Source: Methanocalculus alkaliphilus (GTDB lineage Archaea > Halobacteriota > Methanomicrobia > Methanomicrobiales > Methanocorpusculaceae). Taken from it: a DNA stretch of 64,000 nucleotides. Below, piece after piece: positions 2,286 to 17,933 of the stretch. The first letter of the stretch is position 1, and the number at the start of each line of letters is the position of its first letter. The notes under the pieces were generated by a model. That model searched no databases and had not been told where the DNA came from. It saw nothing but the letters and a program-made list of their open reading frames with translations. The translations under genes were made by a program, and so were the position numbers. The DNA lies in NCBI RefSeq assembly GCF_024170505.1, contig NZ_JALJYG010000012.1, positions 1-64,000 on the forward strand, written 5' to 3'.

Positions 2286-3014
2286 TCATTCCTCCCAGTA
2301 CTCCTCTGTCAGTGGAATCTCCTTCAGCCCTTCCTTGTACCGGCGCCATCCCGGCATGAAGCCGTCCATCAATTCCCTGAACCGTTCATTATGCCGCCGT
2401 TCGATGAGATGGACCATCTCATGGAGGATGATATACTCAAGGCAGAGGGGATAGCGCTTCACCAGCTCCAGGTTTATCCAGATTCGGCGGGCATCAGTAT
2501 TGCAGGTTCCCCAGCGGGTCTTCATCCTCCTGACACCCCACTCTGACACACGGAGACCGGTGTTCTCTTCCCATTTGGCGATGAGTGGAGGTATCTGCTC
2601 TTTGAGCTGCTTCCGGTACCAGGCATAGAGGATCTCCTCCCGCTTCTCACGGCCGGTTCCGGGGCGGACCCTCAACTCCATTGTGGTCGTTCCCCGCAGG
2701 CATACCCGGGGAGGGAGATCTGCTTCAATGAGATCCAGCCGGTACCGCCTCCCCTGGAAGAAATGGGTCTCGCCTGTGATCATCTCCCGTTGGGACTGGC
2801 GATCCTGGTCGAGAAACTTCTTCTGCTGTTTTCTGATCCATTTCAGCCGGGAGATAATGGCAAGCCGTATCGCGTCGTCATCAAGGAAGAGCGGGGCGGA
2901 GACCCGTACGCGACCTTCAGGTGGATAGACCCCGAGGTGAAGGTTCTTAATCTTCTTCCTGGTGATCTCAACGGTAATGCCTGAGACCTCAATCCGATGC
3001 TTCTCAGTAGTCAC
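2286..3014 (-). CDS. M48/SprT-like zinc metallopeptidase (YgjP-type)
   Basis: This 242-residue protein belongs to the YgjP/DUF45 family of small predicted zinc metallopeptidases. The zinc motif HEMVH is at residues 198-202, preceded by the family signature RMKTRWGTC at 163-171 and followed by ERRHNERF. There is no signal peptide, so it should act in the cytoplasm. Its start overlaps the end of hsdR (stop at 3004) by 11 bases, indicating translational coupling as the last gene of the operon. YgjP-like genes are often found beside type I restriction genes; a role in turning over HsdR or another subunit is an inference. The substrate is unknown. Confidence 0.85.
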   Translation of the reverse strand: MTTEKHRIEVSGITVEITRKKIKNLHLGVYPPEGRVRVSAPLFLDDDAIRLAIISRLKWIRKQQKKFLDQDRQSQREMITGETHFFQGRRYRLDLIEADLPPRVCLRGTTTMELRVRPGTGREKREEILYAWYRKQLKEQIPPLIAKWEENTGLRVSEWGVRRMKTRWGTCNTDARRIWINLELVKRYPLCLEYIILHEMVHLIERRHNERFRELMDGFMPGWRRYKEGLKEIPLTEEYWEE

Positions 3015-6000
3015 GCTGATTCTTCACTATCTCAAAGATTCGCCCGATCAGCGGTTCATGATCGCCAAGGACCTGTCGGATGGCACCCAGCACTTCCCGT
3101 TCCTTGAATTTGTTCCCCCGCCATCCCGCCTTTTTCGTCTCCCTGATGGCGGTATCAAGGGCGATTGCCATCTCTGCACGCGGGTTTTCAGCCCTCCGAT
3201 CACCATACGGAGCAAGCTCGGCCAACGCCTGGTTCTCACCTGTTACAAGGTTATCATAGAGTGACCGGAGTGCCGGGGTGGTGAGTGCGGAAGGGTAGGA
3301 TACCTCTTTTTCAGGCTGGCTCACATTCCGTGCCAGCTCGACGATCTTTCCCAGGTATGCCCGGTAATCCAGTGCATGCTGCTTCCGTTCATGGATCAGA
3401 GAGTCCAGGAGCTCGGACATCTTCTCATAGTACTTCGGATTGACCGGCATCTCATCGAGGATGATCTTCCGGACATTGTTCTCGATCGTCTCTGCGACCG
3501 CCTCATGATCCCTCCTGATATCTTCCGGAAGCGCCTCGATCGCCGCTTCTCCACGGATATTGATCAACTGGACGAGCGTCAGATCATCGAATGCCGAGAT
3601 GACCTCACTCTCCTCTGCCCGGATATAGGTATCAAGGAGATGGCGCATCATCGGTTCATAGCGTTTCAGATCGATATAGTCGCCACTTGCCCGCATGATC
3701 TCCTCACGGAGCTTCTCGAAGTGGGCGACCTCACCCCTGATCACCCGTGCCTCCTGATCGGTATAGCCGGCCTCACGCATCTCTCCTGCGATGTCGGCAT
3801 ATCTCCGGAGAAATGTTCCGGCCCGCTTATAGAGATCGACACGGAGGGGCTCGGTTCGTTTCAGGGCAAGGGGATCATCGCTTGAACCACAGAAGTACCG
3901 GATATAGTCCCGGCTCGCACGGGGCGGCTCAACTGGTTCGCAGAGTGCCTTGATCGCCTCACGAATCTCTTCCAGGCGTTCACGCCCTTTCAGAAGCCGG
4001 TCTTTCAGGAGACCCCTGACATCATTTTCATCGAAATCCTCGAAGGCCCCTCCGGTATAGTCTTTGATCGAGCGTTCAAGAGACCTGAAGAGATCTTTAT
4101 AGTCGATGATATGGCCGTACTCCTTATCGTCCCCATCCAGCCGGTTCACCCGGCAGATCGCCTGGAAGAGGCCATGATCCCGCATCTGCTTGTCGATATA
4201 GAGGTAGGTTGCAGGCGGTGCGTCAAAGCCGGTCAGCAGTTTATCAACGACAATTAAGAGCTTCATCTGCCCCGGCTCATCGATGAACCGCCTCTTCACC
4301 TCTTTCTCAAAGATCTCGGCTTTATACATCGCCGTATCTTCTGGCTCATCGAAGTATTCGGCGAGCATCGTTCGATAGATATCATACTGCCGCAGCTTCT
4401 CGGTCAGCCCTTCCCCTGTCTCCTCGCCCTTGATATCCGCAGGTGAGGGCTTGTATGAGGTGATGATCGCAGATCTCCCTTTGAGATCGGTCTTCTGAAA
4501 CATCTCAAAGAACCGGCAGGCAGAATAGATGCTCCCCGAAACAAGCATCGCGTTTCCATGGCCGCTTCTCAGCCGGTCCCTCATCTCCATATCGAGGAGA
4601 ATGTCAGCGACGATCTTTTGGAGCCGATCCTGTGAGCTGAGGACCTTCTTCATCGTGCCCCAGCGTTTTTTAAGTTCTGCCTGTGCGAAATCGGTGAGAC
4701 CTGCTGTTTTTGCCTCGAACCACTGGTCGATCTTTACCTGGGAGGTGATGTTCTGGTCGATATCCCGTGCCTCATACCGGAGATCGAGGACCACGCCATC
4801 ATGGACCGCCTCATCATACTTGTAGGTATGAATATAGGGCCCGAAGATCTCAATGCTCTTCTTCTTGTCCTTCTTTAAAAGGGGCGTGCCGGTGAACCCG
4901 ATCATCATCGTATCCGGGAGGAGGGCCTTCACCGCCTCATGGAGCAGACCCGACTGTGTCCGGTGGCACTCATCGATGAAGACGAAGATCTCGCCTTTGG
5001 CACGGAAATTTTTGGGGAGATGTGCATGGATATCCCTGATGTACTGATCGACATCCTGTTCTGTGAGTTCCTCACCCCGTCCGAACTTATGAATCAGGGA
5101 GCAGATCAGCCATTCTTCGTTTGTATTGAGGACGTTGACGAGATCTGATCCGCTCTTTGCCCGATAGATCGCCTCGCTGACCCCGGTGAAGACCTTCTCG
5201 ATCTGCTCATCCAGTTCAATCCGGTCAGTGACCAGGAGAACCCGGGAACCTTTGATATGCTCCCTGATCCATTTGGCAAGCCAGACCATCGTCAGGCTCT
5301 TCCCGCTCCCCTGGGTATGCCAGATGATCCCGCCTTCACGCTGCCTTACCCGCTCCTGTGCGGCTTTTACCCCGAAGTACTGGTTGTGGCGGCAGGTCTT
5401 TTTGGTCCCGGCATCAAAGACGATAAAATCATGGATCAGCTCAAGGAGGCGCTCCTTCCTGCAGAGCTGGCCAAGTTCCCGGAGGAGAGGATTGTCGGCT
5501 GCATCCGGGTGTGCATCGGCCTCTTTCCACCGAAGATAGTACTTCTCCGGGGTTTCGATGGTGCCATACCGGACCCCTTCGGTCTCATTGCCTGCCATCA
5601 CCAGCTGAATGGTTGCAAAAAACGGCCGGATGAAGACCTTCTTCTGGTTGTCAAGGCTCTGCCGGATACCTTCCGTCACCGAGACGGTGGAGCGTTTCAG
5701 TTCCAGTACTGCAAGGGCGATGCCATTGACATAAAGGACGATATCCGGCCGCTTGGTATTCTCCCCGAATATGGTGACCTCTTCTGCGATGGCAAAGTCG
5801 TTCCTCCCAGGGTTCTGCCAGTCAATCGGCCAGACGGTGATATGCGGCTCCCCGATTGCAGGACGTACCTTCACGCCGTACCTGAGAAGGCTGTAGAATT
5901 CCCGGTTTGCATCATAGAGGGAACGAACACCCCCGACAGTCGCAGCTCTCCCGAGTTCATAGAGGACTTTTTCGATGATCCGATCCTCATGCCCCTGCCG

Positions 6001-6165
6001 GGAGAGCCGGTTCCGGAGCAGGGTCTCCTCGATACTGCCGTTTCTCTCTTTGTCATGCCAGTTACCGAGGCAGGTGTAGCCGAGTGTATCCCGAAAGAAG
6101 CCGATCACCCGTCCCTGTGCCCGTATCTCACGTTCGCCGACGCCCGTCATCCATTCATTCCTCAT
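3004..6165 (-). CDS. hsdR: Type I restriction endonuclease subunit R
   Basis: HsdR is the ATP-dependent translocase and nuclease subunit of the type I complex, working with HsdM and HsdS. The protein has 1053 residues, full length for the family. Residues 139-157 carry the nuclease core (RPDIVLYVNG, then LELK). Walker A is TQGSGKS at 284-290, the DECH box is near residue 400, and GFTGTP follows as helicase motif III. The C-terminal third is helical, as expected for contact with HsdM. The start at 6165 overlaps the upstream DUF4062 gene by 11 bases; an internal Met 15 bases later would remove the overlap. It is the penultimate gene of the island operon, far from hsdM and hsdS. Confidence 0.95.
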   Translation of the reverse strand: MRNEWMTGVGEREIRAQGRVIGFFRDTLGYTCLGNWHDKERNGSIEETLLRNRLSRQGHEDRIIEKVLYELGRAATVGGVRSLYDANREFYSLLRYGVKVRPAIGEPHITVWPIDWQNPGRNDFAIAEEVTIFGENTKRPDIVLYVNGIALAVLELKRSTVSVTEGIRQSLDNQKKVFIRPFFATIQLVMAGNETEGVRYGTIETPEKYYLRWKEADAHPDAADNPLLRELGQLCRKERLLELIHDFIVFDAGTKKTCRHNQYFGVKAAQERVRQREGGIIWHTQGSGKSLTMVWLAKWIREHIKGSRVLLVTDRIELDEQIEKVFTGVSEAIYRAKSGSDLVNVLNTNEEWLICSLIHKFGRGEELTEQDVDQYIRDIHAHLPKNFRAKGEIFVFIDECHRTQSGLLHEAVKALLPDTMMIGFTGTPLLKKDKKKSIEIFGPYIHTYKYDEAVHDGVVLDLRYEARDIDQNITSQVKIDQWFEAKTAGLTDFAQAELKKRWGTMKKVLSSQDRLQKIVADILLDMEMRDRLRSGHGNAMLVSGSIYSACRFFEMFQKTDLKGRSAIITSYKPSPADIKGEETGEGLTEKLRQYDIYRTMLAEYFDEPEDTAMYKAEIFEKEVKRRFIDEPGQMKLLIVVDKLLTGFDAPPATYLYIDKQMRDHGLFQAICRVNRLDGDDKEYGHIIDYKDLFRSLERSIKDYTGGAFEDFDENDVRGLLKDRLLKGRERLEEIREAIKALCEPVEPPRASRDYIRYFCGSSDDPLALKRTEPLRVDLYKRAGTFLRRYADIAGEMREAGYTDQEARVIRGEVAHFEKLREEIMRASGDYIDLKRYEPMMRHLLDTYIRAEESEVISAFDDLTLVQLINIRGEAAIEALPEDIRRDHEAVAETIENNVRKIILDEMPVNPKYYEKMSELLDSLIHERKQHALDYRAYLGKIVELARNVSQPEKEVSYPSALTTPALRSLYDNLVTGENQALAELAPYGDRRAENPRAEMAIALDTAIRETKKAGWRGNKFKEREVLGAIRQVLGDHEPLIGRIFEIVKNQRDY

Positions 6166-7663
6166 TCTTTATTGCAGCCAGCAGATCCCGGCCCTTCTTC
6201 GTCAGGCGGTATTTCTGCAATCGGCTTCTGGGTTTCTCCGGGATTGTCATCTCTACGAGGCCGGCATCAGTTGCGGGTTTGAGATACAATCTTCGGAAAT
6301 TAACGATCCCTTTCAGTTTCAGACGTTTCTGAAGATCCTGCCGGGATATCTCCTCTTCACAGAGTGACAGTATCTTTCTGACTTGGTCCGTGACTTGGTC
6401 CGTGACTTGGTCCGTGACTTGATCTGCCTTCTTCGATGGAGTGATTCCATCGCTTTTACTACGCCTTATCGTGATCATGAATCCGTCAGTGACCTCAAAT
6501 TCAGGCTCTGGTAGTCCGGCATCCACGCACCGCCTGATCATGTCCCGCGTCCCTGTTCCCATCCGTTCGATATACCGGGTCAGGTACATCGGTTCGGCGA
6601 GGAGCGGGTTGCCCGGCACCGACCCATGAGCAACCCGCAGCCTCTCAAGCGTCAGGGTTGGCGGGAGTCTTCCGGGATTCCAGACTTCCAGCCGGTCAGC
6701 AAAGAGCATCACCTGCACACTCCCGTTGCTCGTATAGTCCCGGTGGGCAACTGCATTTACGATCGCCTCTGTGACCACCTCTTTTGGGATCTCATAGCGG
6801 ACCGGGGCCTGCGGACCTTCTGCACGGGTGCCAACCCAGAGATTGATCTTGCTTAAGACGAAGTCAACCGCCTGATCAACGAGTTCAAAGACTGTACCTT
6901 TGTACACCTGGTAGGAAGGGATCGGTTTTGCGACCTCGGTTCCATGGAAGTGGGCGCATTTCACTTCAGAAGTAAGGAGAAAGTCCTGCGGCTTTCTGGC
7001 AAAGAGGAGAATAGATGCGTTTGTCAGATACCCATTGTCGATCAGTTTCAGGTGTTCAAGAACTTCCAGATGAGAGGCATCTTCTGGAAGTGGGAACTGT
7101 CGGGCACGCCTCGCAGTTCTCAGGAACCATGCGATCCGTTCGTGGTCAAGATCATCGGGTGTGGCTTTTTTGCAGGGAGCAGCATCGAAGGGACAGAAGC
7201 GGATCAGCTGTTTCTCTTCCAGATATTCGACAAGTGCCGCATAAAGACCGGCAACCAGCTCCGCAGATGTATTGAACCGCTTTCGGATAAGTCCCGCCTG
7301 CGCCTTGCCGATGAGAGCCTGCATCTTTGGATGGCGAACTGCATCGCTGGCTCCCTTCAGATAGATCAGACGGTATTTCCCTTCTGATGATGCAAAATCA
7401 AACTCATGCTCTGTGGCTGAGATCCCTTCTGCATCTTCATTGCCATACTCTTCACCAAAGAGGCCGACATATAAGTCAGACCGCCCCACCTCTTCCAGGT
7501 AGGTGGTATCGGGGCGGCGGTCAGCTGCGGGCAGATCTTCAAAGAGGAAGACCTCAAAGAACCGCCGCATCAGGGCATCCCCCCGAAGATAGTCACGGAG
7601 GGCGGCCCGCTCTTCGGCAAACTCCTCCTGCACGCTGCTTATGAAGATGCGGATTGGGATCAT
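6155..7663 (-). CDS. DUF4062 plus GHKL-type ATP-binding protein
   Basis: This 502-residue protein combines three parts. Residues 1-105 form a DUF4062 domain (IRIFISSVQEEFAEER, then YVGLFGEEYG), a TIR-like fold. Residues 200-400 are the ATP-binding domain seen in AlbA_2/RecG-like regulators, with EAIVNAVAHRDY as the GHKL N box and IERMGTGT as a glycine motif. Four tandem TDQV repeats at about 417-432 link this to a C-terminal winged helix. The AlbA_2 domain usual in such proteins is replaced by DUF4062. The start overlaps the previous gene by 4 bases (ATGA) and the end overlaps hsdR. An accessory or anti-phage role within the restriction operon is inferred from position. Confidence 0.75.
   Translation of the reverse strand: MIPIRIFISSVQEEFAEERAALRDYLRGDALMRRFFEVFLFEDLPAADRRPDTTYLEEVGRSDLYVGLFGEEYGNEDAEGISATEHEFDFASSEGKYRLIYLKGASDAVRHPKMQALIGKAQAGLIRKRFNTSAELVAGLYAALVEYLEEKQLIRFCPFDAAPCKKATPDDLDHERIAWFLRTARRARQFPLPEDASHLEVLEHLKLIDNGYLTNASILLFARKPQDFLLTSEVKCAHFHGTEVAKPIPSYQVYKGTVFELVDQAVDFVLSKINLWVGTRAEGPQAPVRYEIPKEVVTEAIVNAVAHRDYTSNGSVQVMLFADRLEVWNPGRLPPTLTLERLRVAHGSVPGNPLLAEPMYLTRYIERMGTGTRDMIRRCVDAGLPEPEFEVTDGFMITIRRSKSDGITPSKKADQVTDQVTDQVTDQVRKILSLCEEEISRQDLQKRLKLKGIVNFRRLYLKPATDAGLVEMTIPEKPRSRLQKYRLTKKGRDLLAAIKNEE
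6380..6427. repeat. 12-bp tandem repeat encoding TDQV
   Basis: Three identical copies of GACTTGGTCCGT (6380-6415) and one diverged copy (6416-6427) lie inside the DUF4062/ATPase gene. On the coding strand they give repeated TDQV in the linker before the winged helix. Because the unit is 12 bases, copy-number change would keep the frame and alter only linker length. Confidence 0.85.
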
Positions 7664-8163
7664 GATAGCCTGATCAACCCATGCTTTCTAGCCATCTTTT
7701 CATTCATTACAACAACCACATTGGCTCCCATCGCCCAGAGACGGATAGTTCGTCGAAGTCTCTGAAGCAGAGCATCCTGAAGCTGTGGGAGATCTGCATT
7801 CTCGCAGTCCCTGATGACAAGAACCAGTCGGAACCCGATGGCAGAGAGATCGGGATCCCGAAGAGGTGCGGGCAGTTCATTCTTTGCCAAACCATGACGT
7901 CCCAATCCTAATGCAAGCCAGAGATTCACCGCATTCTCAAGCTTCTCTCCGATTTCTGAGATATAGTTATTGAGACCGGATAGATTTGCCTCAGTATGTG
8001 GATTGCTTGATTTTGCCTCAACAACCCAAACAACAGGTGCAAAATCCCTCCTCTCCTTGAGAAGCAGGAAATCTGCCATCTTCACCTCTTTCTGTATTCT
8101 TTGGTAGAGACTGCTTCGATCGATACAGAAACAATGTTCCTCAGGAAAGGGTCCAAACTGCAT
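7660..8163 (-). CDS. PD-(D/E)XK-like protein paired with AAA ATPase
   Basis: A 167-residue cytoplasmic protein that I cannot assign to a named family. Residues 25-51 (EVKMADFLLL, then VVWVVEAKSS) match a PD-(D/E)XK nuclease core: Asp31, then Glu49-x-Lys51 at the end of a hydrophobic strand. The rest is compatible with a small alpha/beta fold ending in a basic helix (LLQRLRRTIRLW). It starts 26 bases after the stop of the AAA ATPase gene and overlaps the following DUF4062 gene by 4 bases. ATPase plus small nuclease-like partner is an arrangement common in two-component defence systems. Nuclease activity is inferred from three residues only. Confidence 0.6.
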   Translation of the reverse strand: MQFGPFPEEHCFCIDRSSLYQRIQKEVKMADFLLLKERRDFAPVVWVVEAKSSNPHTEANLSGLNNYISEIGEKLENAVNLWLALGLGRHGLAKNELPAPLRDPDLSAIGFRLVLVIRDCENADLPQLQDALLQRLRRTIRLWAMGANVVVVMNEKMARKHGLIRLS

Positions 8164-8189: not shown

Positions 8190-9203
8190 TTAGCGGAATG
8201 CGAGCTTCACCTCTTCTTCATAAAGCCGGATTGATTCATCTATGATTTTATTCTCAGGCAGACCATCTATCAGATTCGCAGACTGCCACTCACCGTCTTC
8301 TTCGGCGATGATCCGTATTGGAACCTCATTCCTCTGGGCTATCAGGGCGAGTTTCTTCAGAACAAAGTATGAATGGCTGGCAAGGAATAACTGAATTCCT
8401 CTGCTGGCAAGGATCGAGATGATCTCAAGGAATTCTGAGACTGCAACCGGGTGAAGGGCAGCCTCAGGTTCATCGATGAAGATGATCGATTCCGTATCCA
8501 GGTACCGGTTGCCAAGGAGTGTATCGAGGATGGCGATCTTCTTGACTCCTTCTGATGTAACACCGATTAAGAATTTCTGTTTCCCCTTTTGAAAGACCCA
8601 TCTGGCGTCGTTTTCGTCATACTCAAGCCTTCCTCCGATGAGATCTTTGAGGCTCTTTCTGGATGTTGCAAACTCCGGGTAATTTCTGCCGGATCGGGTT
8701 GATCTGCTGAGTGCACGGGCAAGGTCAAGGTATGTATCATCAAATCCGAAGACCTGATCCTGCTCACGTGATTTGAGGATAATATGATGGATGGAGAGGA
8801 CCTCTTTGGCAGGAAGGAAGATCGAATTGCTCGTTCGTGATTCTCGTATCTCGGAGATCTTCTGGAACTTCTTCGTCGCATCCTTTCCAAAGCAGTACCT
8901 GAAGATCTCCTGGTTGAGGGTGATTGAGCAGGAGAGTGGATCAGACACCCCTTTGGTGACGAGATCACCTATTTTTTCTGCCTGAAAGGTCCAGTAGAGC
9001 TTCTCAGCAAGGATCTCAGATGCCAATCGCTGGTCATCCCCACGCCGATACTCTTCCATCGTCTTTACGGCTGAGTACAATGCCTTGAGGAGGAAGGTCT
9101 TGCCACTCCCGTTCCCACCGATTATAAGGTTTATTGAACCGATATCCTGCCAGTTTAGATGGGTGATCGGGCCGAAGTTCTTCAGTTCCACGGAATTGAG
9201 CAT
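8190..9203 (-). CDS. AAA_21/AAA_15 ABC-type ATPase
   Basis: A 337-residue stand-alone ABC-type ATPase of the group that includes OLD-like and AriA-like defence ATPases. Walker A is GGNGSGKT at 29-36, the signature region is TSEGVKK at 216-222, Walker B is IIFIDEPEAALHP at 240-251, and the switch His is in LASHS at 274-278. No TOPRIM or DUF4435 domain is present, so any effector must be another protein; the PD-(D/E)XK-like gene immediately downstream is the obvious candidate. The start at 9203 (MLNSVELKNFGPI) is typical for the family. Its place inside a type I restriction operon supports a defence role, which remains inference. Confidence 0.75.
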   Translation of the reverse strand: MLNSVELKNFGPITHLNWQDIGSINLIIGGNGSGKTFLLKALYSAVKTMEEYRRGDDQRLASEILAEKLYWTFQAEKIGDLVTKGVSDPLSCSITLNQEIFRYCFGKDATKKFQKISEIRESRTSNSIFLPAKEVLSIHHIILKSREQDQVFGFDDTYLDLARALSRSTRSGRNYPEFATSRKSLKDLIGGRLEYDENDARWVFQKGKQKFLIGVTSEGVKKIAILDTLLGNRYLDTESIIFIDEPEAALHPVAVSEFLEIISILASRGIQLFLASHSYFVLKKLALIAQRNEVPIRIIAEEDGEWQSANLIDGLPENKIIDESIRLYEEEVKLAFR

Positions 9204-9311: not shown

Positions 9312-9737
9312 CTATTCGACCTGATCGTCATTCCCTTCTATGATCTCCCAGTGGCCGCCTCTGTCTGGACCGATGCGTTGTAACCCCACCGTCTTCTTCA
9401 GCTGCTGAATCTACCACTCGATACCTTTTTGACTGATTCCAAGCCTCTTTGCCATTTCTTTCATGGTGATAGACGAATCCGCCTTTATCAGAGTGATGAT
9501 CTGCTCTCCGGTTTCTTCCCTCGCTATCACCCTGGTTTCTTCCCTAGTTTCTTTCCTGTTTTCTTCCCTAGTACCCCCCGATCTATCCTCCATTCTGTAT
9601 GGAAACTCCACCCAGAGACCGGCATCATCCATGCCGATATAGAGCCTGCCGCCCTGAGCATTGGCAAATCCGCAGATCCATTTGAGGTATTCGTCCCGCC
9701 AGGACTGTTTGTACTCGATGGATTCTGTCTCGGTCAT
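9312..9737 (-). pseudogene. AlbA_2-type ATP-binding protein, deleted and with amber stop
   Basis: The first 36 residues (ESIEYKQSWRDEYLKWICG, FANAQGG, YIGMDDAG) are the start of a Schlafen AlbA_2 domain. After DDAG the reading jumps to LWVEFPY, which belongs to the far C-terminal part of such proteins, so about 300 residues are deleted in frame. A linker rich in REET repeats follows, then a winged helix (MKEMAKRLGISQKGIEW). An in-frame TAG at 9411-9413 interrupts this domain; beyond it the same frame continues IQQLKK, RIGPDRGGHW to a TAG at 9312-9314. An intact homologue would be about 450-500 residues. The start overlaps the fragment upstream by 4 bases. Confidence 0.75.
9505..9567. repeat. 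Imperfect 12-bp repeats encoding REET linker
   Basis: Several imperfect 12-base units of the type GTTTCTTCCCTA lie in this stretch of the decayed AlbA_2 gene. On the coding strand they give Arg-Glu-Glu-Thr-like repeats between the former ATPase part and the winged helix. Copies differ by one to three bases. Confidence 0.6.
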
Positions 9738-9991
9738 GGGTGTGCATCTGCCAGGTCTTGATCTGGTATATCGGGCTTATCCAGTGTTACGGAGAGCAAT
9801 TTTAATTGGGTACTTTTCTGGGTACTTTTCAGGGTACTTTTTGGGGTAGTGATTGGGACAGTGATTGGGGTAGTTCTATCCTCACCCAAACCAGCTGCTT
9901 GCAGGTGCGAAGGATTCGCATGGAACGAGAGCATCAGACCTGCCATCCCGGACATATTGTAAGCGTCCTCGGATATCAAAGCAAGATTCAC
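9734..9991 (-). pseudogene. AlbA_2-type protein, C-terminal fragment
   Basis: A GTG at 9991 overlaps the stop of the DUF262 gene and opens 85 codons. The segment GLMLSFHANPSHLQAAG resembles the strand that closes the ATPase domain of AlbA_2-type proteins. It is followed by TTPITVPITTP and KSTLKSTQKSTQ, a linker typical of that family, but the winged helix that should follow is replaced by an unrelated tail (PDIPDQDLADAHP). I read it as the broken C-terminal half of a second such gene, different in sequence from the remnant just downstream. It could still be translated by coupling, but no function is claimed. Confidence 0.5.
9799..9868. repeat. 12-bp repeats encoding KSTQ and ITTP linkers
   Basis: Three 12-base units of the type GGGTACTTTTCT are followed by GGGGTAGTGATT-type units. 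They encode the KSTL-KSTQ-KSTQ and TTPITVPITTP linkers of the fragment at 9734-9991. The units are multiples of three, so changes in copy number preserve the frame. Confidence 0.75.
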
Positions 9992-11832
9992 CCCATGGTT
10001 ACTTCCAGATCATCCCTGTATTCGTACTCGCCACCCTCGGCAATCTGGCTCACGGATTTGCCAGTGACCCCCTCTATGAGTCTGCTTAACCTGACGCGAC
10101 GATCTTCGAGGAAAGCTTTAAAATCATCATTTCGTAAGAGCGTCGGGTTAAGTGCGTGGCTGGCAAGCAATGTGTCCATATCCTCATCTCTGAGTTGCAC
10201 CTGTTTCTCATTCTGGATACGTTGAAGATAGCTTGAAGGCGGATCTCCACCGATCTTGCGGTTTGCCTTGAAGGATATCGGCGTCTTGTTTAGGATACAA
10301 TCGTATTGTTCCTTTGGAATTCCTTGTTGCTGGCACCATGCCTGCGGGAAGATGTGATGAATGTCAAGTCTGATATCGTCGGCATCCAGCTCTTTGATTC
10401 CGGCTTTCCAGAACCAGTCCTGCGCACCCTGCCGTAAGAACAGTACATTAAGCCCTTTATATGCGGCACTCAGACGGGAGCGGAGTGTATTGAACCGATC
10501 CGGATGGAAGGTTGCATCGCGGACTGTGCGTGGTATTGCTGCATCATCTTCAAACCAGGCCAGCAGCTCTTCGTAATCATTTGCCATGCGGGTTTCAACC
10601 GCACCGCCATAGAGTTCGCCTAATACACCACACCAGAACCACCGGGAGAGTTTATCATAGATCCGCGGCTCAAGCCAGCGATCACCAAGTTGAGCCATGA
10701 CTGCCGCCAGAGGCACAAGCTGGGTACTATAGGGGAGTTCACGGCGGTGGTAGAAAAACTCCTTTCGCAGAAACCTCCCTGCGAGCTGAAAACCCTTTTC
10801 TACAGCATCAGCATATTTCTGCCAGGCGCTCAGAGGGAGTTTTAATACATCGACCCGTTTTGCACTTACCGGGCGTACCTGTTTATCGATTTTTCCTGCC
10901 TCAATATCGGACAATCTCAACTCATGCGTATGGAGGAGGGTTACAGTCTGTAAAAACTCGGGTGCTTCCAATTCTGTCAGCAATGGATCTGCGGCAATCC
11001 GTTTTTGTCGGGATTCCACATTGCGGATAGATGATCCAAACCAGTCATCACGAAGATTGTAGCCATCTGCCGCATAACTTGCCGTAACGAGTTCAAACAC
11101 AGACAGTTTGACACCGCCGGTGTTCACCTTTTCAAAAACAAGACAGACAGCTTCTTTTGAGGTTGCTTTTGTCAGCTGAATTACCGGCAACTGATACGTT
11201 CTGAATGAGTTGAGGATTTCATTGCGAAACGTCATATAGATGCCAAAATGTTCCGGTGCCACTTTATGCAATGTGTACTCCCACTGATCGGAGTTCATCA
11301 CCTGATCACAGGGAAAACAGAGCTGTTTGCACTCAAGTTCCTGTGTGGAGAGATCCAGCATCACATCACGGCCGAAATTGGTTCGGAGCTGCTTCTTCTC
11401 ATCCACTGCAATAATAGCGTCAGCCAGATCATAGGGGGCATCCACAGCTTTTTTGATGTCGAAATAATAATGCCGTTTAATCTTCTTATCCTTGGATGTC
11501 CGGGTATCGACGGGTTCTGTGAGAGAGAGTGCCTGCGTCAGGGTGGTAAGGCGCTGCTGACCATCAAGGATAAGCTTCTCCGGCTGCACCCCTCCATTCA
11601 ATTTCTTTTCAAGCCCTTCAACAGGCCGTGTCTGAAAACGCACTTCTCCACCGGTCTCAAGAAACATCACCGCACCCACCGGGAAGGAGCGGCTGATACT
11701 CACTAAAAGATCCTGGATATGATCGTCATCCCATACCCATCCTCGCTGAAAATCCGGCAACTGGATCTTCCCTGCACAGATATCACTCAAAATAGAGCTG
11801 AGTGAAGCTTTTGTACTATCAAAACTGCTCAT
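9988..11832 (-). CDS. DUF262/HNH protein, GmrSD-like
   Basis: A 614-residue protein of the DUF262 (ParB-like) family. The N-terminal domain has the conserved QLPDFQRGWVWDDDHIQDLL at about residues 23-42 and later LILDGQQRLTTL, which is the nucleotide-binding DGQQR motif. The C-terminal half carries the DUF1524 HNH nuclease signature DIHHIFP near residue 485, followed by the NK segment. Fused DUF262-DUF1524 proteins include GmrSD type IV restriction enzymes, which cut modified DNA, and related phage-defence proteins. The start (ATGA) overlaps the hsdS stop by 4 bases, so it is translationally coupled to the specificity subunit. All key residues are present. Confidence 0.85.
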   Translation of the reverse strand: MSSFDSTKASLSSILSDICAGKIQLPDFQRGWVWDDDHIQDLLVSISRSFPVGAVMFLETGGEVRFQTRPVEGLEKKLNGGVQPEKLILDGQQRLTTLTQALSLTEPVDTRTSKDKKIKRHYYFDIKKAVDAPYDLADAIIAVDEKKQLRTNFGRDVMLDLSTQELECKQLCFPCDQVMNSDQWEYTLHKVAPEHFGIYMTFRNEILNSFRTYQLPVIQLTKATSKEAVCLVFEKVNTGGVKLSVFELVTASYAADGYNLRDDWFGSSIRNVESRQKRIAADPLLTELEAPEFLQTVTLLHTHELRLSDIEAGKIDKQVRPVSAKRVDVLKLPLSAWQKYADAVEKGFQLAGRFLRKEFFYHRRELPYSTQLVPLAAVMAQLGDRWLEPRIYDKLSRWFWCGVLGELYGGAVETRMANDYEELLAWFEDDAAIPRTVRDATFHPDRFNTLRSRLSAAYKGLNVLFLRQGAQDWFWKAGIKELDADDIRLDIHHIFPQAWCQQQGIPKEQYDCILNKTPISFKANRKIGGDPPSSYLQRIQNEKQVQLRDEDMDTLLASHALNPTLLRNDDFKAFLEDRRVRLSRLIEGVTGKSVSQIAEGGEYEYRDDLEVTMG

Positions 11833-13142
11833 GCTTGCACCATGTTATTATGGTCACCAATCTCTTCCGGGGCGACCAGCCGCACCTTCCCGGTCAGGAG
11901 CTGCTGCATCATCCCCTGCTTAATCTCCTTGGACTTATCCCGGCGGCGTTCAAGGGCGGCGATCTCGGCGTCCATGTCAAGAAGAAGCTTACTTATTGCT
12001 AATTGCTCATCTATTGAAGGTAGCTCAACCTCAATTTGAGATAGACTTCGTGTACTTATGTGAACTATAGCATCTCCTTGAGCCATGCGTGCTTTTTGCA
12101 TTGTCACACTTTCATGATTCATGAGATGACCAAGGTATATTGAATTCTGACCCTCCGGGTTGAGAACAATAATATCTCCACCAGCATATGCTTGCTCAGT
12201 TCCAAGATAAGCAGCACATTGACCAATGTCTTCAGCAGTCTCTCCAGAGCCAGCAAAAAGTAAGTCCCCGGTTTTAATCGGCAAAGCATCTGAGGCAACG
12301 GAAGGTGAGATCCTTGAAACAGGAGAAGTAATGTAATTTTTATATGTCGTATACAACTCCCCATATCTGATACAAGCTAAGCCATTATCAGACACATCAT
12401 CCCTTTTAATTCCCCTGCCCTTTGAAAAGGTCCCTATAGCTCCAACTTTTACTGTAACCCACTCCCCCTCAAACCCCGGCAGCCTCGTCCTCCCGGTCAG
12501 AAGCTGCTGCATGGCGGCCTGCTTCATATCCCGCTTCTTGGTGATGAGGGCATCCAGCGCCCCGATCAGTCCATCGACATCGGAGAGGGCGGCGGCGATG
12601 GCGTGTTGTTCAGGGAGGGGTGGAGTTGGAATAAGAACACTATAAATACTTTTGTTCGATGTGTGCCGTACTGTTGTGCCTATTGCCCGCTCCTTAATAA
12701 CATCCAGATAAAGTCGGGAGAGTAAAAAATAAAATAGGTACGATTTAACAAGGCCCTTATTTTTTATTATAACTTTTCCAATACGCTGATTATGTAAAAT
12801 TATTTCCTCTGATAGAATAAAAGCGGGTTTACCAAGAAGATTGCACCCTGGAGTTAAATCAGTCATTACAATCAACAAATCACCAACACGAAAAATCATT
12901 TCAGAACTATAAACTCCAGAAAAACGCTTAGTATTTCGCTCCTCAAAATATAAACCGCCATCAAGCCTGAAATTACCAGGTGTAAGGATAATAGGACCTG
13001 AATATGAGAAGTATTTACTACTAAATGCGAATCCATTTTTTAGAGAGAATAAATCCCCAAGAGGGTGAATTTTCCAATCCTCCGGTATCACCCCGATCTC
13101 CGTCCGCTTATAGCCAGAAGGTACAGCACCCTGCTCAGTCAT
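11829..13142 (-). CDS. hsdS: Type I restriction specificity subunit S
   Basis: HsdS chooses the DNA target of the methylase and nuclease complexes. The 437 residues show two target recognition domains, each followed by a conserved spacer helix: PPLPEQHAIAAALSDVD through MQQLLTGRTRLPGFEGEW in the middle, and PSIDEQLAISKLLLDMD through MQQLLTGKVRL at the end. The first recognition domain (about bases 12640-13070) is visibly AT-rich compared with the GC-rich conserved segments, a sign of domain exchange by recombination. The gene overlaps the DUF262 gene downstream by 4 bases. The half-sites of the target cannot be read from the sequence. Confidence 0.93.
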   Translation of the reverse strand: MTEQGAVPSGYKRTEIGVIPEDWKIHPLGDLFSLKNGFAFSSKYFSYSGPIILTPGNFRLDGGLYFEERNTKRFSGVYSSEMIFRVGDLLIVMTDLTPGCNLLGKPAFILSEEIILHNQRIGKVIIKNKGLVKSYLFYFLLSRLYLDVIKERAIGTTVRHTSNKSIYSVLIPTPPLPEQHAIAAALSDVDGLIGALDALITKKRDMKQAAMQQLLTGRTRLPGFEGEWVTVKVGAIGTFSKGRGIKRDDVSDNGLACIRYGELYTTYKNYITSPVSRISPSVASDALPIKTGDLLFAGSGETAEDIGQCAAYLGTEQAYAGGDIIVLNPEGQNSIYLGHLMNHESVTMQKARMAQGDAIVHISTRSLSQIEVELPSIDEQLAISKLLLDMDAEIAALERRRDKSKEIKQGMMQQLLTGKVRLVAPEEIGDHNNMVQA

Positions 13143-13472: not shown

Positions 13473-13718
13473 TTATGTGCGCGAACATAAATCACCTGAG
13501 CAGGTATGTGCGCACACATAAACTTCCGAATGGAAATGTTCGGAGTTCAAAGACAAATGTTCGAAGCTCCCTGTCAAATGTTCGGAGCTTAAAACCAAAT
13601 GTTCGAACCTCTCTCTCAAATGTTCGGAGCTTGAAACCAAATGTTCGAAGCTCTCTCTCATATGTTCGGAGTTCAGCTTCGAACATATCCCACCTGCTCT
13701 AAACATTCTCACACCCAC
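13473..13718 (-). pseudogene. Repeat-linker remnant (SSEHL/FEHL repeats)
   Basis: On the minus strand this stretch is open for 81 codons and mostly consists of a 14-residue repeat of the type FEHLVLSSEHLRER. Repeats of the SSEHL type occur as linkers before the winged helix in AlbA_2/ATP-binding regulators, and two decayed members of that family lie nearby at 9.3-10.0 kb. I therefore read it as the linker of a third deleted gene, though it may be a non-coding minisatellite that happens to be open in two frames. No catalytic domain is present on either side. Confidence 0.35.
13534..13688. repeat. 21-bp minisatellite in alternating A/B units
   Basis: Seven contiguous 21-base units begin at 13534, 13555, 13576, 13597, 13618, 13639 and 13660. 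All start with (A/T)AATGTTCG or ATATGTTCG. Odd and even units differ in the second half, giving a 42-base higher-order period. The array ends in a perfect inverted repeat: ATATGTTCG at 13660-13668 pairs with CGAACATAT at 13680-13688. It lies in the gap between the 307-residue gene and hsdS. Confidence 0.9.
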
Positions 13719-13984: not shown

Positions 13985-14908
13985 TTATTCCACCCCATCC
14001 ATAAACTCAAATCCGGTAAGTGTGTATGTATGGTGTTTACTCATTCCAACACTCCTCTCCAGAAGATGAATGATCACCCGTTGATCCAGCTGTCGATTGA
14101 TCTTCCCGGCATCCTCAATTGAAGAATCAACCCTTCCTGAAATGACCTCGTCAGAATCACCCTTACGGAATTCAAATATTCGTTTATTCGGGAGATATCC
14201 AAGAAAAACACCTGTGAAGGTCACATCTTCTTCACGGATATTATCCTCACTGAGTCGCTTCTCACTCTGGCGAATCTGACCAACATCAGAAAAGCTGAAT
14301 GAATCCCTGCCGGACTGCAGAGTGCATACTGCCTCGTTATCAGCAAGGTACCTGACAAAGTCATGAAGCTCTTTGATTGCCCTCGGATCAGATTCAGAGA
14401 GAGCTTCATTTAACTCTTCATCAGTCTCAACAGATGCTTTGAGGATACTCATTGTTGTATGGATTGCTGATTCAAGGGGAGAAAACTCCTTTGTCAGCTT
14501 GTAATTCTCTGATGGTTCCTCAATAACAAATCCAAATGAACCTCTGGCAATCCCGGTTATCAACAGTTTATATTCCTCACGATTTGGAAGTGCCCCGCGT
14601 GATCCAAGAGTTTCGGTCTGACTTGTACCAATTGCCCGGACGGCATCAGCAAATTTTTTTAGAGCAAATCCTCCAAAATCAGCTTGAACTCCGTGATTGC
14701 CAAATATTGGAGCTCCACGAAACGTCAGACTGAACCGGGCCGGCTGACGAACAGGACCTTCCAGTGACGCAAGAGCTTTCTCTACATTGTTTCTTCGGGC
14801 TTCAAGGCTCATACGTTCGATTAAGCTGGATTCGGGAAGCATCGTGAGCATTTTATTAAGAGTGGACAGCTCCGCCTGTAAATAATCATACTGCTGAATA
14901 GTTGTCAT
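13985..14908 (-). CDS. Unknown 307-residue partner of NTase-like protein
   Basis: I do not recognise this protein. Residues 1-50 are strongly helical and likely coiled coil (YDYLQAELSTLNKMLTMLPE, then MSLEARRNNVEKALASLEG). The middle (RFSLTFRGAPIFG, then FGGFALKKFADAVRAIG) looks alpha/beta. A helical acidic segment follows near 150-200, and the C-terminal part is beta-rich (VTFTGVFLGYLPNKRIFEF). There is no signal peptide or membrane segment. Its ATG overlaps the stop of the NTase-like gene by 4 bases, so the two are co-translated and probably form one system. It lies between hsdM and hsdS, which are normally adjacent. Confidence 0.7.
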   Translation of the reverse strand: MTTIQQYDYLQAELSTLNKMLTMLPESSLIERMSLEARRNNVEKALASLEGPVRQPARFSLTFRGAPIFGNHGVQADFGGFALKKFADAVRAIGTSQTETLGSRGALPNREEYKLLITGIARGSFGFVIEEPSENYKLTKEFSPLESAIHTTMSILKASVETDEELNEALSESDPRAIKELHDFVRYLADNEAVCTLQSGRDSFSFSDVGQIRQSEKRLSEDNIREEDVTFTGVFLGYLPNKRIFEFRKGDSDEVISGRVDSSIEDAGKINRQLDQRVIIHLLERSVGMSKHHTYTLTGFEFMDGVE

Positions 14909-15498
14909 ACCGAATCTCCTCCACCCATTAACTCATCCAGATTTCTCTGAGCAACCGTATCATCATTATTGGACAGATCAATCTGTAAAAAACCTTTCCA
15001 TTGACCATCCCTTCGGTGAGACCAGAGGCTATACCAGTATGCAGCCGAATCAACCAGTATTTCTGGTGCACCCGCGTTCAACCGGACAAAATATGCATCA
15101 ACATGATATTTGCTTTTCAGGCTTTCATGGTTGAAGAGTCCGGGTGCAGAACCGATAATGCCCTCTTCGGTCACTCCATCAGGAATATGAAAGAAGGTGA
15201 CCAGATCAATATCCTCTGGATCCCGCTCTTCTATCCTCTCAATATCCTCAAGGAAACTCCCATCGATCCACTGAAAACCCTTGATAATACCCACTGTATA
15301 TAATGCAGAACGGAACTCCAGGAGCCCTTTCAGGATGGCCTGCCGACGAGGTGTGATTCCAAAGCGAAGGATGATATCCGTTAAAGAAATTGAATACGGC
15401 GATCGGTCGTGAGATATCGGATCATGCATATTAACCGGCGGTATCACCCCATCGCTATTCCATGGCGGTATCGCATCTCTCTCCATCCTCACTCCCAC
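14905..15498 (-). CDS. Nucleotidyltransferase-like protein (DUF6932-type)
   Basis: A protein of up to 197 residues with the polymerase-beta nucleotidyltransferase pattern: DGS at 79-81, then DID at 96-98 in PEDIDLVTFF, and a third carboxylate at Asp134 in HVDAYFV. The 14-residue space between GS and DID is occupied by a charged insertion (FLEDIERIEERDPE), as in the DUF6932 group. GTG 15498 overlaps hsdM; ATG 15486, four codons in, does not and has a GTGAGG-like site, so it may be the true start. The stop overlaps the 307-residue gene by 4 bases. Transfer of a nucleotide to RNA or protein is likely from the fold, but the target is unknown. Confidence 0.65.
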   Translation of the reverse strand: MGVRMERDAIPPWNSDGVIPPVNMHDPISHDRSPYSISLTDIILRFGITPRRQAILKGLLEFRSALYTVGIIKGFQWIDGSFLEDIERIEERDPEDIDLVTFFHIPDGVTEEGIIGSAPGLFNHESLKSKYHVDAYFVRLNAGAPEILVDSAAYWYSLWSHRRDGQWKGFLQIDLSNNDDTVAQRNLDELMGGGDSV

Positions 15499-17933
15499 TC
15501 AACCCCCATCCTCTTCAGATGCTCCTCGACCTTCGCCGCGTACTCCTCCACCTCATCCTCAAGCTTCGGCATTGGATCGGCATACCGCTCGTCCAGCTCC
15601 TTCACCCGGGTGGCGAGCCGCTGGGTTGCCTGCTGGACTTCGCCTTCGATTGCCGAGCAGATGGAGGCGAACCACTTGTCGTTAATGACGAGTGCCTTGA
15701 TCGCATCCTCGTTGAGCTTCGGGTACATGGCAAGCACCGCTGCATCAAGCGTCGCCTGGGCGGTCTTGACCGCCTTCGCCGCCTCTGAATCTGCATCCGT
15801 CAGGGAGAGGCAGCGGGTGAGGGCGTCCCGCTCGTCGGCATACTCGGGATCGCGGCCGATCTCTTTGAGCCTTTTGCTGAGATCGCCTTTTGTCATCTTC
15901 CCTGCCTCACTCTTTGCATCCTCAAGGAGCCCCTCCTCGCCGGTATGCTCCTCGATGAACTCCTCAAGCTCGCGGGCGGCATTCTCCTGCTCCATTCGGA
16001 GACGGTCGATTCCCTCCTGCTCATCTGCACAGTACCGGGAGATGATGAGAGAGGGGGGAACCAGATCCATCTTGTACTTCTTCCGGTTGACGACCAGATC
16101 CGGGGTCTCCTTAATCTTCCGCTCCTTATCCTCGATGATCCCACGGGGGCGGGCCGCCTCGACCCAGCCATCGGCGATGATCATCCCGGCATCATCCTGC
16201 ATCACTTCTGCCCAGTAGTCCATCAAGCGCTGATAGACATCGTACCTGCTCAGGAGCGGAAGGTTGGCATACCGCTTCAGGAGATCCTCGGAGAGGGTAT
16301 GGATCACCTCTTTCGTCTTATGTTCAGATGAAAGCCCGCTCAGCAGAGGCTCATGGGCGGATCGCCATTCCCTGAAGATCCCCGCAATCCGGGATGCATA
16401 TGCTTTAAACTCGGGATGGGCGAGGATCACCCCCCTGACCTCACGGGCTTCGACCTTCGGCTCCGAGTACCCGGGCCGGCCATTGCCTTTGAATAGCTCA
16501 TGCCGGAGCGTCGGGAAGACGGCCCAGTACTCCTCCAGGGCATCGATATCACGATCCGGGATGCCCCCGTTCATATGGGCATCGAGATCATGGAGATCTT
16601 CCGGATCACTGGAATCGATGTACCGGGGGATATTCAGGTTGTAGTCATTTGCCGGATCGGCAATCTCGGCAACCGGGACCATCCGGGAGTAGCCGGGAAG
16701 GTCGATCTGATGGTTGAAGACATCCACGATCTTATGGATATCCTGCGACCGGAGCCGATTCTTGTTTCCATCCTTGGCATACCCCTTTGATGCATCGATC
16801 ATGAAGATGCCGGTCCGGACATGGGCATTCTCCTTATCCACGACGATGATGCAGGCAGGGATGCCGGTTCCATAGAAGAGATTGGCAGGCAGACCGATGA
16901 TCCCTTTGATGTACCCCCGTTTGATGAGGTTTCTCCGGATATCACCCTCCTTGTTCCCCCGGAAGAGGACGCCATGCGGGAGGATGATCGCCCCCTTCCC
17001 TGTGCTTTTGAGGGATTTTATCAGGTGGAGGAGGAAGGCATAATCACCATTCTTTGACGGCGGTACACCGGGATCGAAGCGGCCAAATAGATCATGCTCA
17101 GGATCAAGGCCGCTCGTCCATGCCTTTGATGAAAATGGCGGATTGGCGACGGCAAAGTCGAAGGTCTTCAGGCCGCCGTCGTCGTCTTTGAAGTGCGGAG
17201 AGGAGAGGGTGTTCCCCCGCCAGATAACATGGGTCGGGTAATTGTGGAGGAACATATTCATCCGGGCAAGCGACCAGGTGGCATTGTCCATCTCCTGCCC
17301 ATAGATCGAGATGCCACGGGGTGCTTCTTCTGCCGCCTTCAGGAGCAGTGAGCCGGAACCGCAGGTGGGATCATAGATCGTCTGATCCTGGCGGGTATTG
17401 GGACCGATCCCGACCACCTTCGCAATGATCCTGGAGACCTCGGCCGGAGTATAGAACTGCCCTTTGCTCTTGCCGGACTCGGTTGCGAAGTTACGCATCA
17501 GGTATTCGTAGGCATCTCCAAGGAGATCGTCTCCTTCGGGGCCATTCGCACTGAAGTCAAGCGAATCAAAGATGGCGATCAGCTTCGAGAGCCGGTCCTG
17601 CATCTCCTTGCCGGTGCCGAGTCTGGACTCGTCATTGAAGTCAGCGAGATCGATGACACCCTTGAGATCGTTTGCCTCTGCAAGCCTGCTGATGATCTTG
17701 TTGATCCGATCCCCGATCTCCTTGTCTCCTTTCAGCCGGACCATATCGGAGAAGCCGCCGCCTTCGGGGACTTCGATCACCGAATTTGGATCACGCTCGC
17801 TCTTATCGGTGACATATTTCATGAAGAGGAGGGTGAGGATGTAATCCTTGTACTGCGAGGCATCCATCCCGCCACGGAGTTCATCGCAGCTCTGCCAGAG
17901 TGAGCTATAGAGTTGGGTCTTTTTGAGTGCCAT
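15489..17933 (-). CDS. hsdM: Type I restriction modification methylase subunit M
   Basis: HsdM is the N6-adenine methyltransferase subunit that, with HsdS, protects host DNA. The 814-residue protein begins with the HsdM N-terminal helical domain (LWQSCDELRGGMDASQYK). AdoMet motif I is DPTCGSGSLL at 188-197 and the catalytic NPPF is at 264-267. Residues from about 480 onward form a long charged helical extension with coiled-coil character, making it about 300 residues longer than classical HsdM. It is the first gene of the minus-strand operon, and hsdS normally follows directly; here five kilobases with other genes intervene. The start at 17933 is well supported by family length. Confidence 0.95.
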   Translation of the reverse strand: MALKKTQLYSSLWQSCDELRGGMDASQYKDYILTLLFMKYVTDKSERDPNSVIEVPEGGGFSDMVRLKGDKEIGDRINKIISRLAEANDLKGVIDLADFNDESRLGTGKEMQDRLSKLIAIFDSLDFSANGPEGDDLLGDAYEYLMRNFATESGKSKGQFYTPAEVSRIIAKVVGIGPNTRQDQTIYDPTCGSGSLLLKAAEEAPRGISIYGQEMDNATWSLARMNMFLHNYPTHVIWRGNTLSSPHFKDDDGGLKTFDFAVANPPFSSKAWTSGLDPEHDLFGRFDPGVPPSKNGDYAFLLHLIKSLKSTGKGAIILPHGVLFRGNKEGDIRRNLIKRGYIKGIIGLPANLFYGTGIPACIIVVDKENAHVRTGIFMIDASKGYAKDGNKNRLRSQDIHKIVDVFNHQIDLPGYSRMVPVAEIADPANDYNLNIPRYIDSSDPEDLHDLDAHMNGGIPDRDIDALEEYWAVFPTLRHELFKGNGRPGYSEPKVEAREVRGVILAHPEFKAYASRIAGIFREWRSAHEPLLSGLSSEHKTKEVIHTLSEDLLKRYANLPLLSRYDVYQRLMDYWAEVMQDDAGMIIADGWVEAARPRGIIEDKERKIKETPDLVVNRKKYKMDLVPPSLIISRYCADEQEGIDRLRMEQENAARELEEFIEEHTGEEGLLEDAKSEAGKMTKGDLSKRLKEIGRDPEYADERDALTRCLSLTDADSEAAKAVKTAQATLDAAVLAMYPKLNEDAIKALVINDKWFASICSAIEGEVQQATQRLATRVKELDERYADPMPKLEDEVEEYAAKVEEHLKRMGVEWE

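Follow-up and report, generated by a model that had tools for sequence, protein, structure and literature searches.

A fixed two-gene module of a DUF6932 nucleotidyltransferase-fold protein and an OB-fold partner, found in type I restriction–modification operons and prophages

Introduction

The anticodon nucleases linked to restriction–modification (R-M), PrrC/EcoprrI and RloC, are encoded by extra gene(s) in type I R-M operons, and PrrC is released upon inhibition of restriction (PMC3874165; PMC2610378). The MenT and AbiEii toxins are small nucleotidyltransferases (NTases) coupled to a partner gene, and MenT extends tRNA acceptor stems (PMC10435456). HepT-MntA (HEPN/MNT) likewise joins a minimal NTase to a second gene, with MntA silencing HepT by adenylylation (PMC7641770). 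In PD-lambda-2, a HigB-like toxin comes first and an antitoxin-like HTH-peptidase gene second (PMC9519451); one of the 21 systems in that study contains a DUF6575 protein. A further system is PDC-M63AB, a phage defense candidate in PADLOC that consists of a DUF6932 protein and a partner of about 306 aa and is itself a prediction. The only published test of it that we found is its deletion from a prophage of E. coli NILS69, which brought no change against 10 phages (PMC12409345). No paper dealing with DUF6932 by name was found in the literature searched.

Here we describe two genes, A and B, in a type I R-M operon of the archaeon Methanocalculus alkaliphilus. They lie in a 64,000-nucleotide stretch (contig NZ_JALJYG010000012.1, positions 1 to 64,000), referred to below as the window. 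The pair resembles each of the above systems in part. As extra genes in a type I R-M operon A and B recall PrrC and RloC, but PrrC is a single ABC-ATPase/anticodon nuclease, whereas A-B combines an NTase-fold protein with an OB-fold protein and carries no such motifs. With MenT/AbiEii and with HepT-MntA, the module shares the linkage of a small NTase to a second gene. However, AbiEii (PF08843) is not among the Pfam matches of A with E values up to 1, B has no family match to known antitoxins and no HEPN features, and the pattern of disruption reported below speaks against a toxin role for B. The gene order is that of PDC-M63AB, although the two enterobacterial PDC-M63AB pairs that we examined follow a repressor-like, phage-type gene, whereas the window pair sits in an R-M operon.

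Results

The locus and its operon

The earlier note on this DNA had placed two ORFs in the interval between hsdM and hsdS, and the sequence confirms them there, on the minus strand. The features of the operon are as follows.

3004-6168, minus strand: hsdR, restriction subunit (HSDR_N, SWI2_SNF2, T1R_D3-like)
6155-7687, minus strand: DUF4062 + HATPase_c_4 + Fic-like_C protein, 14-base overlap with hsdR
7660-8163, minus strand: HEC-02B, embedded in the R-M operon (E 2.7e-50)
8190-9203, minus strand: HEC-02A ATPase, embedded in the R-M operon (E 1.2e-154)
9988-11832, minus strand: GmrSD_N protein, 614 aa, single, in the R-M operon, 4-base overlap with hsdS
11829-13142, minus strand: hsdS, specificity subunit (Methylase_S, E 4.3e-23)
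13534-13671, no strand: 42-bp tandem repeat, 3.3 copies, 89% match, within the gap between B and hsdS
13985-14908, minus strand: gene B, partner protein, 307 aa (phrog_18731, AF2, Foldseek)
14905-14908, minus strand: 4-base stop/start overlap of A and B, read from the sequence
14905-15498, minus strand: gene A, DUF6932 NTase-fold protein, 197 aa (PF22014, PDC-M63A, conservation, AF2)
15489-17933, minus strand: hsdM, type I methyltransferase, directly upstream of A (N6_Mtase, E 9.7e-102; HsdM_N)

The candidate defense pair HEC-02A/HEC-02B also occurs at the Methanocalculus chunghsingensis locus (L011).

The pair had been described as tied together by four-base overlaps; there is one such overlap, between A and B, with the ATG of B at 14908. 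At the hsdM end, initiation of A at the GTG at 15498 would produce an overlap of 10 bases, while a start at the in-frame ATG at 15486, four codons on, gives a protein of 193 aa and a 2-base gap to hsdM. Most homologs favor the ATG, which is the likelier start. On the other side, B does not abut hsdS and lies 842 bp from it. A scan for promoters and terminators gave signals no more frequent than expected by chance.

A Schlafen AlbA_2 fragment (9411-9737) beside a short overlapping ORF (9411-9991) resembles a decaying Schlafen-type gene. These fragmented ORFs, together with the repeat-bearing gap before hsdS, could be taken to mean that the locus is partly decaying or carries nonfunctional cargo in this archaeon. 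We consider this highly improbable, as A and B are intact with all of their conserved residues, and both genes are 94-95% identical to a copy in the same place in M. chunghsingensis.

Gene A and its active site

A belongs to Pfam DUF6932 (PF22014, E 5.9e-33) and also matches PADLOC PDC-M63A (E 3.7e-13) and phrog_9194. The pattern GS-x-DxD is general to the nucleotidyltransferase superfamily, and the motif spacing of A agrees with it. A has the features of this (Pol beta) superfamily, namely GS, DxD, and a third carboxylate on the next strand. The residues to which the earlier note had pointed, GS (G80, S81), DID (D96, I97, D98), and Asp134, are all present, and they are conserved across the family: G80, S81, P94, D96, D98, H161, W167, K168, and G169 are found in 100% of 63 A proteins, and D134 in 98%. 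Poor conservation of the NTase residues, which the note had named as telling against its proposal, is not what the family shows. The third Asp is absent from some divergent archaeal A proteins (L102, L104). The AF2 model of A is confident (pLDDT 92.5). Its best Foldseek match in the PDB is a putative NTase, a weak match (E 3e-3), and CdnC, FAM46C, and minimal NTases appear lower in the list, all of them weak. Low-scoring archaeal PF22014 matches (L105-L113), which are short and partial, were set aside as other NTases because the A and B profiles both fail to recognize them; L125, confirmed neither by either profile nor by tblastn, was also set aside.

Gene B, its fold and its relatives

Gene B had been noted as having no recognizable family. 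This holds for Pfam and NCBIfam, and profile searches with the window B gave no PADLOC family match either, but B matches phrog_18731 with an E value of 6.5e-64, and PDC-M63B is matched by 10 of 72 B relatives (best E 1.8e-5; the window's own B is unmatched). Conversely, in two enterobacterial genomes the B profile picks out the PDC-M63B protein, which in both lies directly downstream of a DUF6932 gene. Because B relatives and the B profile match M63B, and A matches PDC-M63A, the window pair is, judged by sequence, a divergent relative within the PDC-M63 superfamily. With A in a named Pfam family and the pair a distant member of PADLOC's PDC-M63AB, the module is thus not wholly undescribed; the earlier note had called it the best candidate for an undescribed one.

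The AF2 model of B (pLDDT 92.2) has three parts. The N-terminus is a helical hairpin (4-48), whose helices (4-23 and 29-48) are modeled with high confidence and bear out the coiled-coil start seen earlier in the sequence. The middle is an alpha/beta core, in which the GSFGF loop (123-127) is invariant, and the C-terminus (about 224-302) is a beta barrel of the OB fold, for which Foldseek returns the OB folds of RPA32, Stn1, RecO, and SSB with a probability of about 1 and an E value of about 0.01. Over nearly its full length, B resembles a phage DUF6575 protein in fold (Foldseek E 3.3e-13). We did not adopt DUF6575 as its family, as this is a match of fold only, and the 25 families listed for the 72 B members at E values up to 5 do not include PF20215, nor do those for the window B. 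DUF6575 genes are few in the sampled genomes.

The conserved polar residues of B are mostly Arg, Glu, Ser, and Thr. Conservation of 70% or more is reached by a single Asp and by no His or Cys, and there is no Asp cluster; B also has no HEPN Pfam match, and no conserved catalytic set is evident. Given this residue composition, a binding or sensing role appears to fit B better than that of an enzyme.

A and B as a fixed pair

A genome scan with the B profile retained 80 loci, enlarged to 90 with four plasmids and genomes of the same phylum, and these span archaea, Proteobacteria, Planctomycetes, Verrucomicrobia, Chloroflexota, Chlorobi, Chlamydiae, and others. A recognizable A immediately precedes B in 88 of the 90; one of the two exceptions is cut by a contig edge, and the other retains a remnant of A. 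The spacing between the genes is -4 in 47 of the 88 loci and -8 in 16. The pair also occurs as such far outside restriction loci, and its homologs are not mostly apart, the outcome that the earlier note had named as telling against a module.

Searches starting from A agree. In 295 archaeal genomes of the window's phylum, all 10 full-length DUF6932 genes precede B or a divergent B. In 299 genomes of another phylum, nine loci have a clear B and one (L114) a marginal B, the other DUF6932 loci being one with a cut B (L124), two with a different partner (L115, L119), and the unconfirmed L125. Viral contigs retrieved by A alone carry B in 57 of 57 cases. The scan of viral sequences for B worked with an alignment-based query and not with a single sequence; with tblastn, neither A nor B matched any named phage, yet copies are numerous on viral contigs. 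Pairwise identities of A and of B are correlated (Mantel r 0.886, with 0 of 2000 permutations as high). The pair is also present on plasmids. In archaea, bacteria, and prophages alike, A-B forms a fixed module of two genes, and as two small co-translated genes inherited together it has the layout expected of a toxin–antitoxin (TA) system.

Disruption pattern and partner exchange

Two further observations resemble those of a TA system, as the earlier note had proposed. First, at eight independent loci (L026, L027, L057, L060, L072, L087, L088, L138), A is broken inside the contig and B is intact, while motif scans of 164 loci, with truncations at contig edges excluded, found none in which B is broken. 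The asymmetry of 8 versus 0 has a length-weighted p of 5e-4; because B is longer than A, random damage predicts the opposite bias. Misassembly of metagenome-derived genomes could account for some of the A breaks and may thus inflate the count. A reverse case, L124, in which A is intact and B is truncated after the hairpin, was counted against reading A as the effector.

Second, at L115 (1420-3374) and L119 (130-2038), DUF6932 is followed by an HTH_3 + M78 (IrrE-like) peptidase protein, and B is absent. By its domains, this is an alternative DUF6932 module, in which DUF6932 occupies the position of the toxin in PD-lambda-2 and the peptidase protein resembles the second gene of that system; the toxin fold differs from that of PD-lambda-2, however, and the window pair has B in place of the HTH-peptidase.

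Together, the breaks in A beside an intact B and the exchange of partner favor A as the effector and B as its inhibitor. They also argue against the reverse assignment of roles, in which A, as in HepT-MntA, would be an adenylylating MNT-like antitoxin that silences a B toxin. Such an arrangement has a precedent in MntA (PMC7641770), and A is indeed small, has an intact NTase site, and is coupled to a second protein. Yet B survives intact at the eight loci at which A is destroyed, B has neither a HEPN motif nor another conserved catalytic set, and DUF6932 can exchange B for an HTH-peptidase protein, which together make this assignment improbable.

Restriction-operon and prophage contexts

Besides the window, 25 database loci have A-B in a type I R-M operon. 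About 30% of the chromosomal copies lie co-directionally inside such operons; as neighboring genes were called with a crude ORF caller, the context counts are approximate, and one distant "RM" match (L069) was left out. The R-M ORFs recognized around the pair, 84 of 84, run in the same direction as it does. The commonest order is hsdM-hsdS-[A-B]-hsdR, and in several R-M-embedded copies the pair overlaps, stop to start, with hsdS or with the gene that follows. A divergent archaeal copy (L207) also sits in an R-M locus. When mapped onto a tree of 87 B proteins, the R-M label needs 13 changes, at least 7 of them forced by well-supported branches; compared with shuffled labels it is clustered, but it clearly does not reflect a single event. 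We found no description of this recurrent embedding in the literature searched. The majority of chromosomal copies are found outside such operons, and hence R-M is not a general requirement of the module.

In three of the R-M operons, an Abi_C gene (PF14355) directly follows B and precedes hsdR (L017:8912-9691, Halomonas; L018:8897-9658, Hydrogenophilales; L044:7022-7789, Magnetococcales), and it is a possible third component there. Upstream of chromosomal copies there are also two nucleotidyltransferase-domain proteins and two NTase_sub_bind proteins, from which MNT/HEPN-like pairs appear to share some of the A-B loci.

The viral copies have a different setting. None of 56 distinct copies on viral contigs has R-M genes within 5 kb. 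Of 90 proteins scanned upstream of viral copies, 26 match phrog_4 and 18 the CI-like phrog_6201, so that prophage copies often follow a CI-like or related repressor, the counts being approximate.

These contexts bear on two other explanations. In one, A-B would be a selfish addiction module or a general stress TA system, with A as toxin, B as antitoxin, and no guarding of restriction, and its presence in R-M operons and prophages would reflect nothing more than the mobile, mutually stabilizing nature of both. The pairing and the disruption data support this as well, as do the plasmid copies and the location of most chromosomal copies outside R-M operons. The uniform direction of the neighboring R-M ORFs and the recurrent, overlapping position between hsdS and hsdR nevertheless suggest something beyond co-residence, and the position behind CI repressors recalls exclusion genes. 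We regard pure addiction as a credible explanation, though an unlikely one.

In the other, A-B would be an accessory or regulator of its host element, tuning restriction or affecting lysogeny by transferring nucleotides to one of that element's proteins or RNAs. The close integration into the operon beside hsdS and hsdR, the frequent position behind a phage repressor, and the PDC-M63AB knockout without a phage-resistance phenotype (PMC12409345) are all consistent with such a role. However, because the family occurs in unrelated contexts (R-M operons, prophages, plasmids, and stand-alone loci), a single dedicated target in the host element is unlikely, and we hold this explanation to be distinctly doubtful.

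Discussion

We consider A-B to be a mobile module of the toxin–antitoxin or abortive-infection type, in which A would be the effector and B its inhibitor or sensor, perhaps also a guard of the R-M system; we give this reading a probability of about 0.5. Most likely, A would act as a compact, metal-dependent nucleotidyltransferase that, once free of B, transfers a nucleotide to an essential cellular target. By analogy with the MenT toxins, tRNA 3' ends would be the first guess for that target. The MenT toxins are the nearest functional analog of A, which itself lies outside their family. B, co-translated with A, would keep it inactive and might sense its trigger through the OB fold and the core domain.

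The trigger may differ with the setting. Prophage copies, which often take the lysogenic position downstream of a CI-like repressor, could serve to exclude superinfecting phages. Within type I R-M operons, the module is embedded as PrrC is, and it may be a guard that is released upon inhibition of restriction; position is the one basis on which such PrrC-like guarding of the R-M enzyme by A-B is suggested. A bolder version of this idea would make A-B the first of a novel type of restriction guard, in which an NTase toxin would be silenced by an OB-fold sensor of the R-M complex or of phage DNA, inhibited restriction would lead to a shutdown of translation or another core process, and the same cassette would be reused behind prophage CI repressors for superinfection exclusion. 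We consider this version, taken as a whole, unlikely and put it forward as speculation. The negative result for PDC-M63AB concerns a prophage copy only and not the R-M-embedded form.

What is new here is the extension of DUF6932/PDC-M63 to a widespread family that is repeatedly embedded in type I R-M operons. For a named but unstudied family this defines an anatomy and a role that can be put to the test, and its two contexts, within R-M operons and behind CI repressors, offer concrete candidate triggers. As insertion into type I R-M operons recurs on several branches, many restriction loci may harbor an additional, NTase-based layer that present annotation overlooks.
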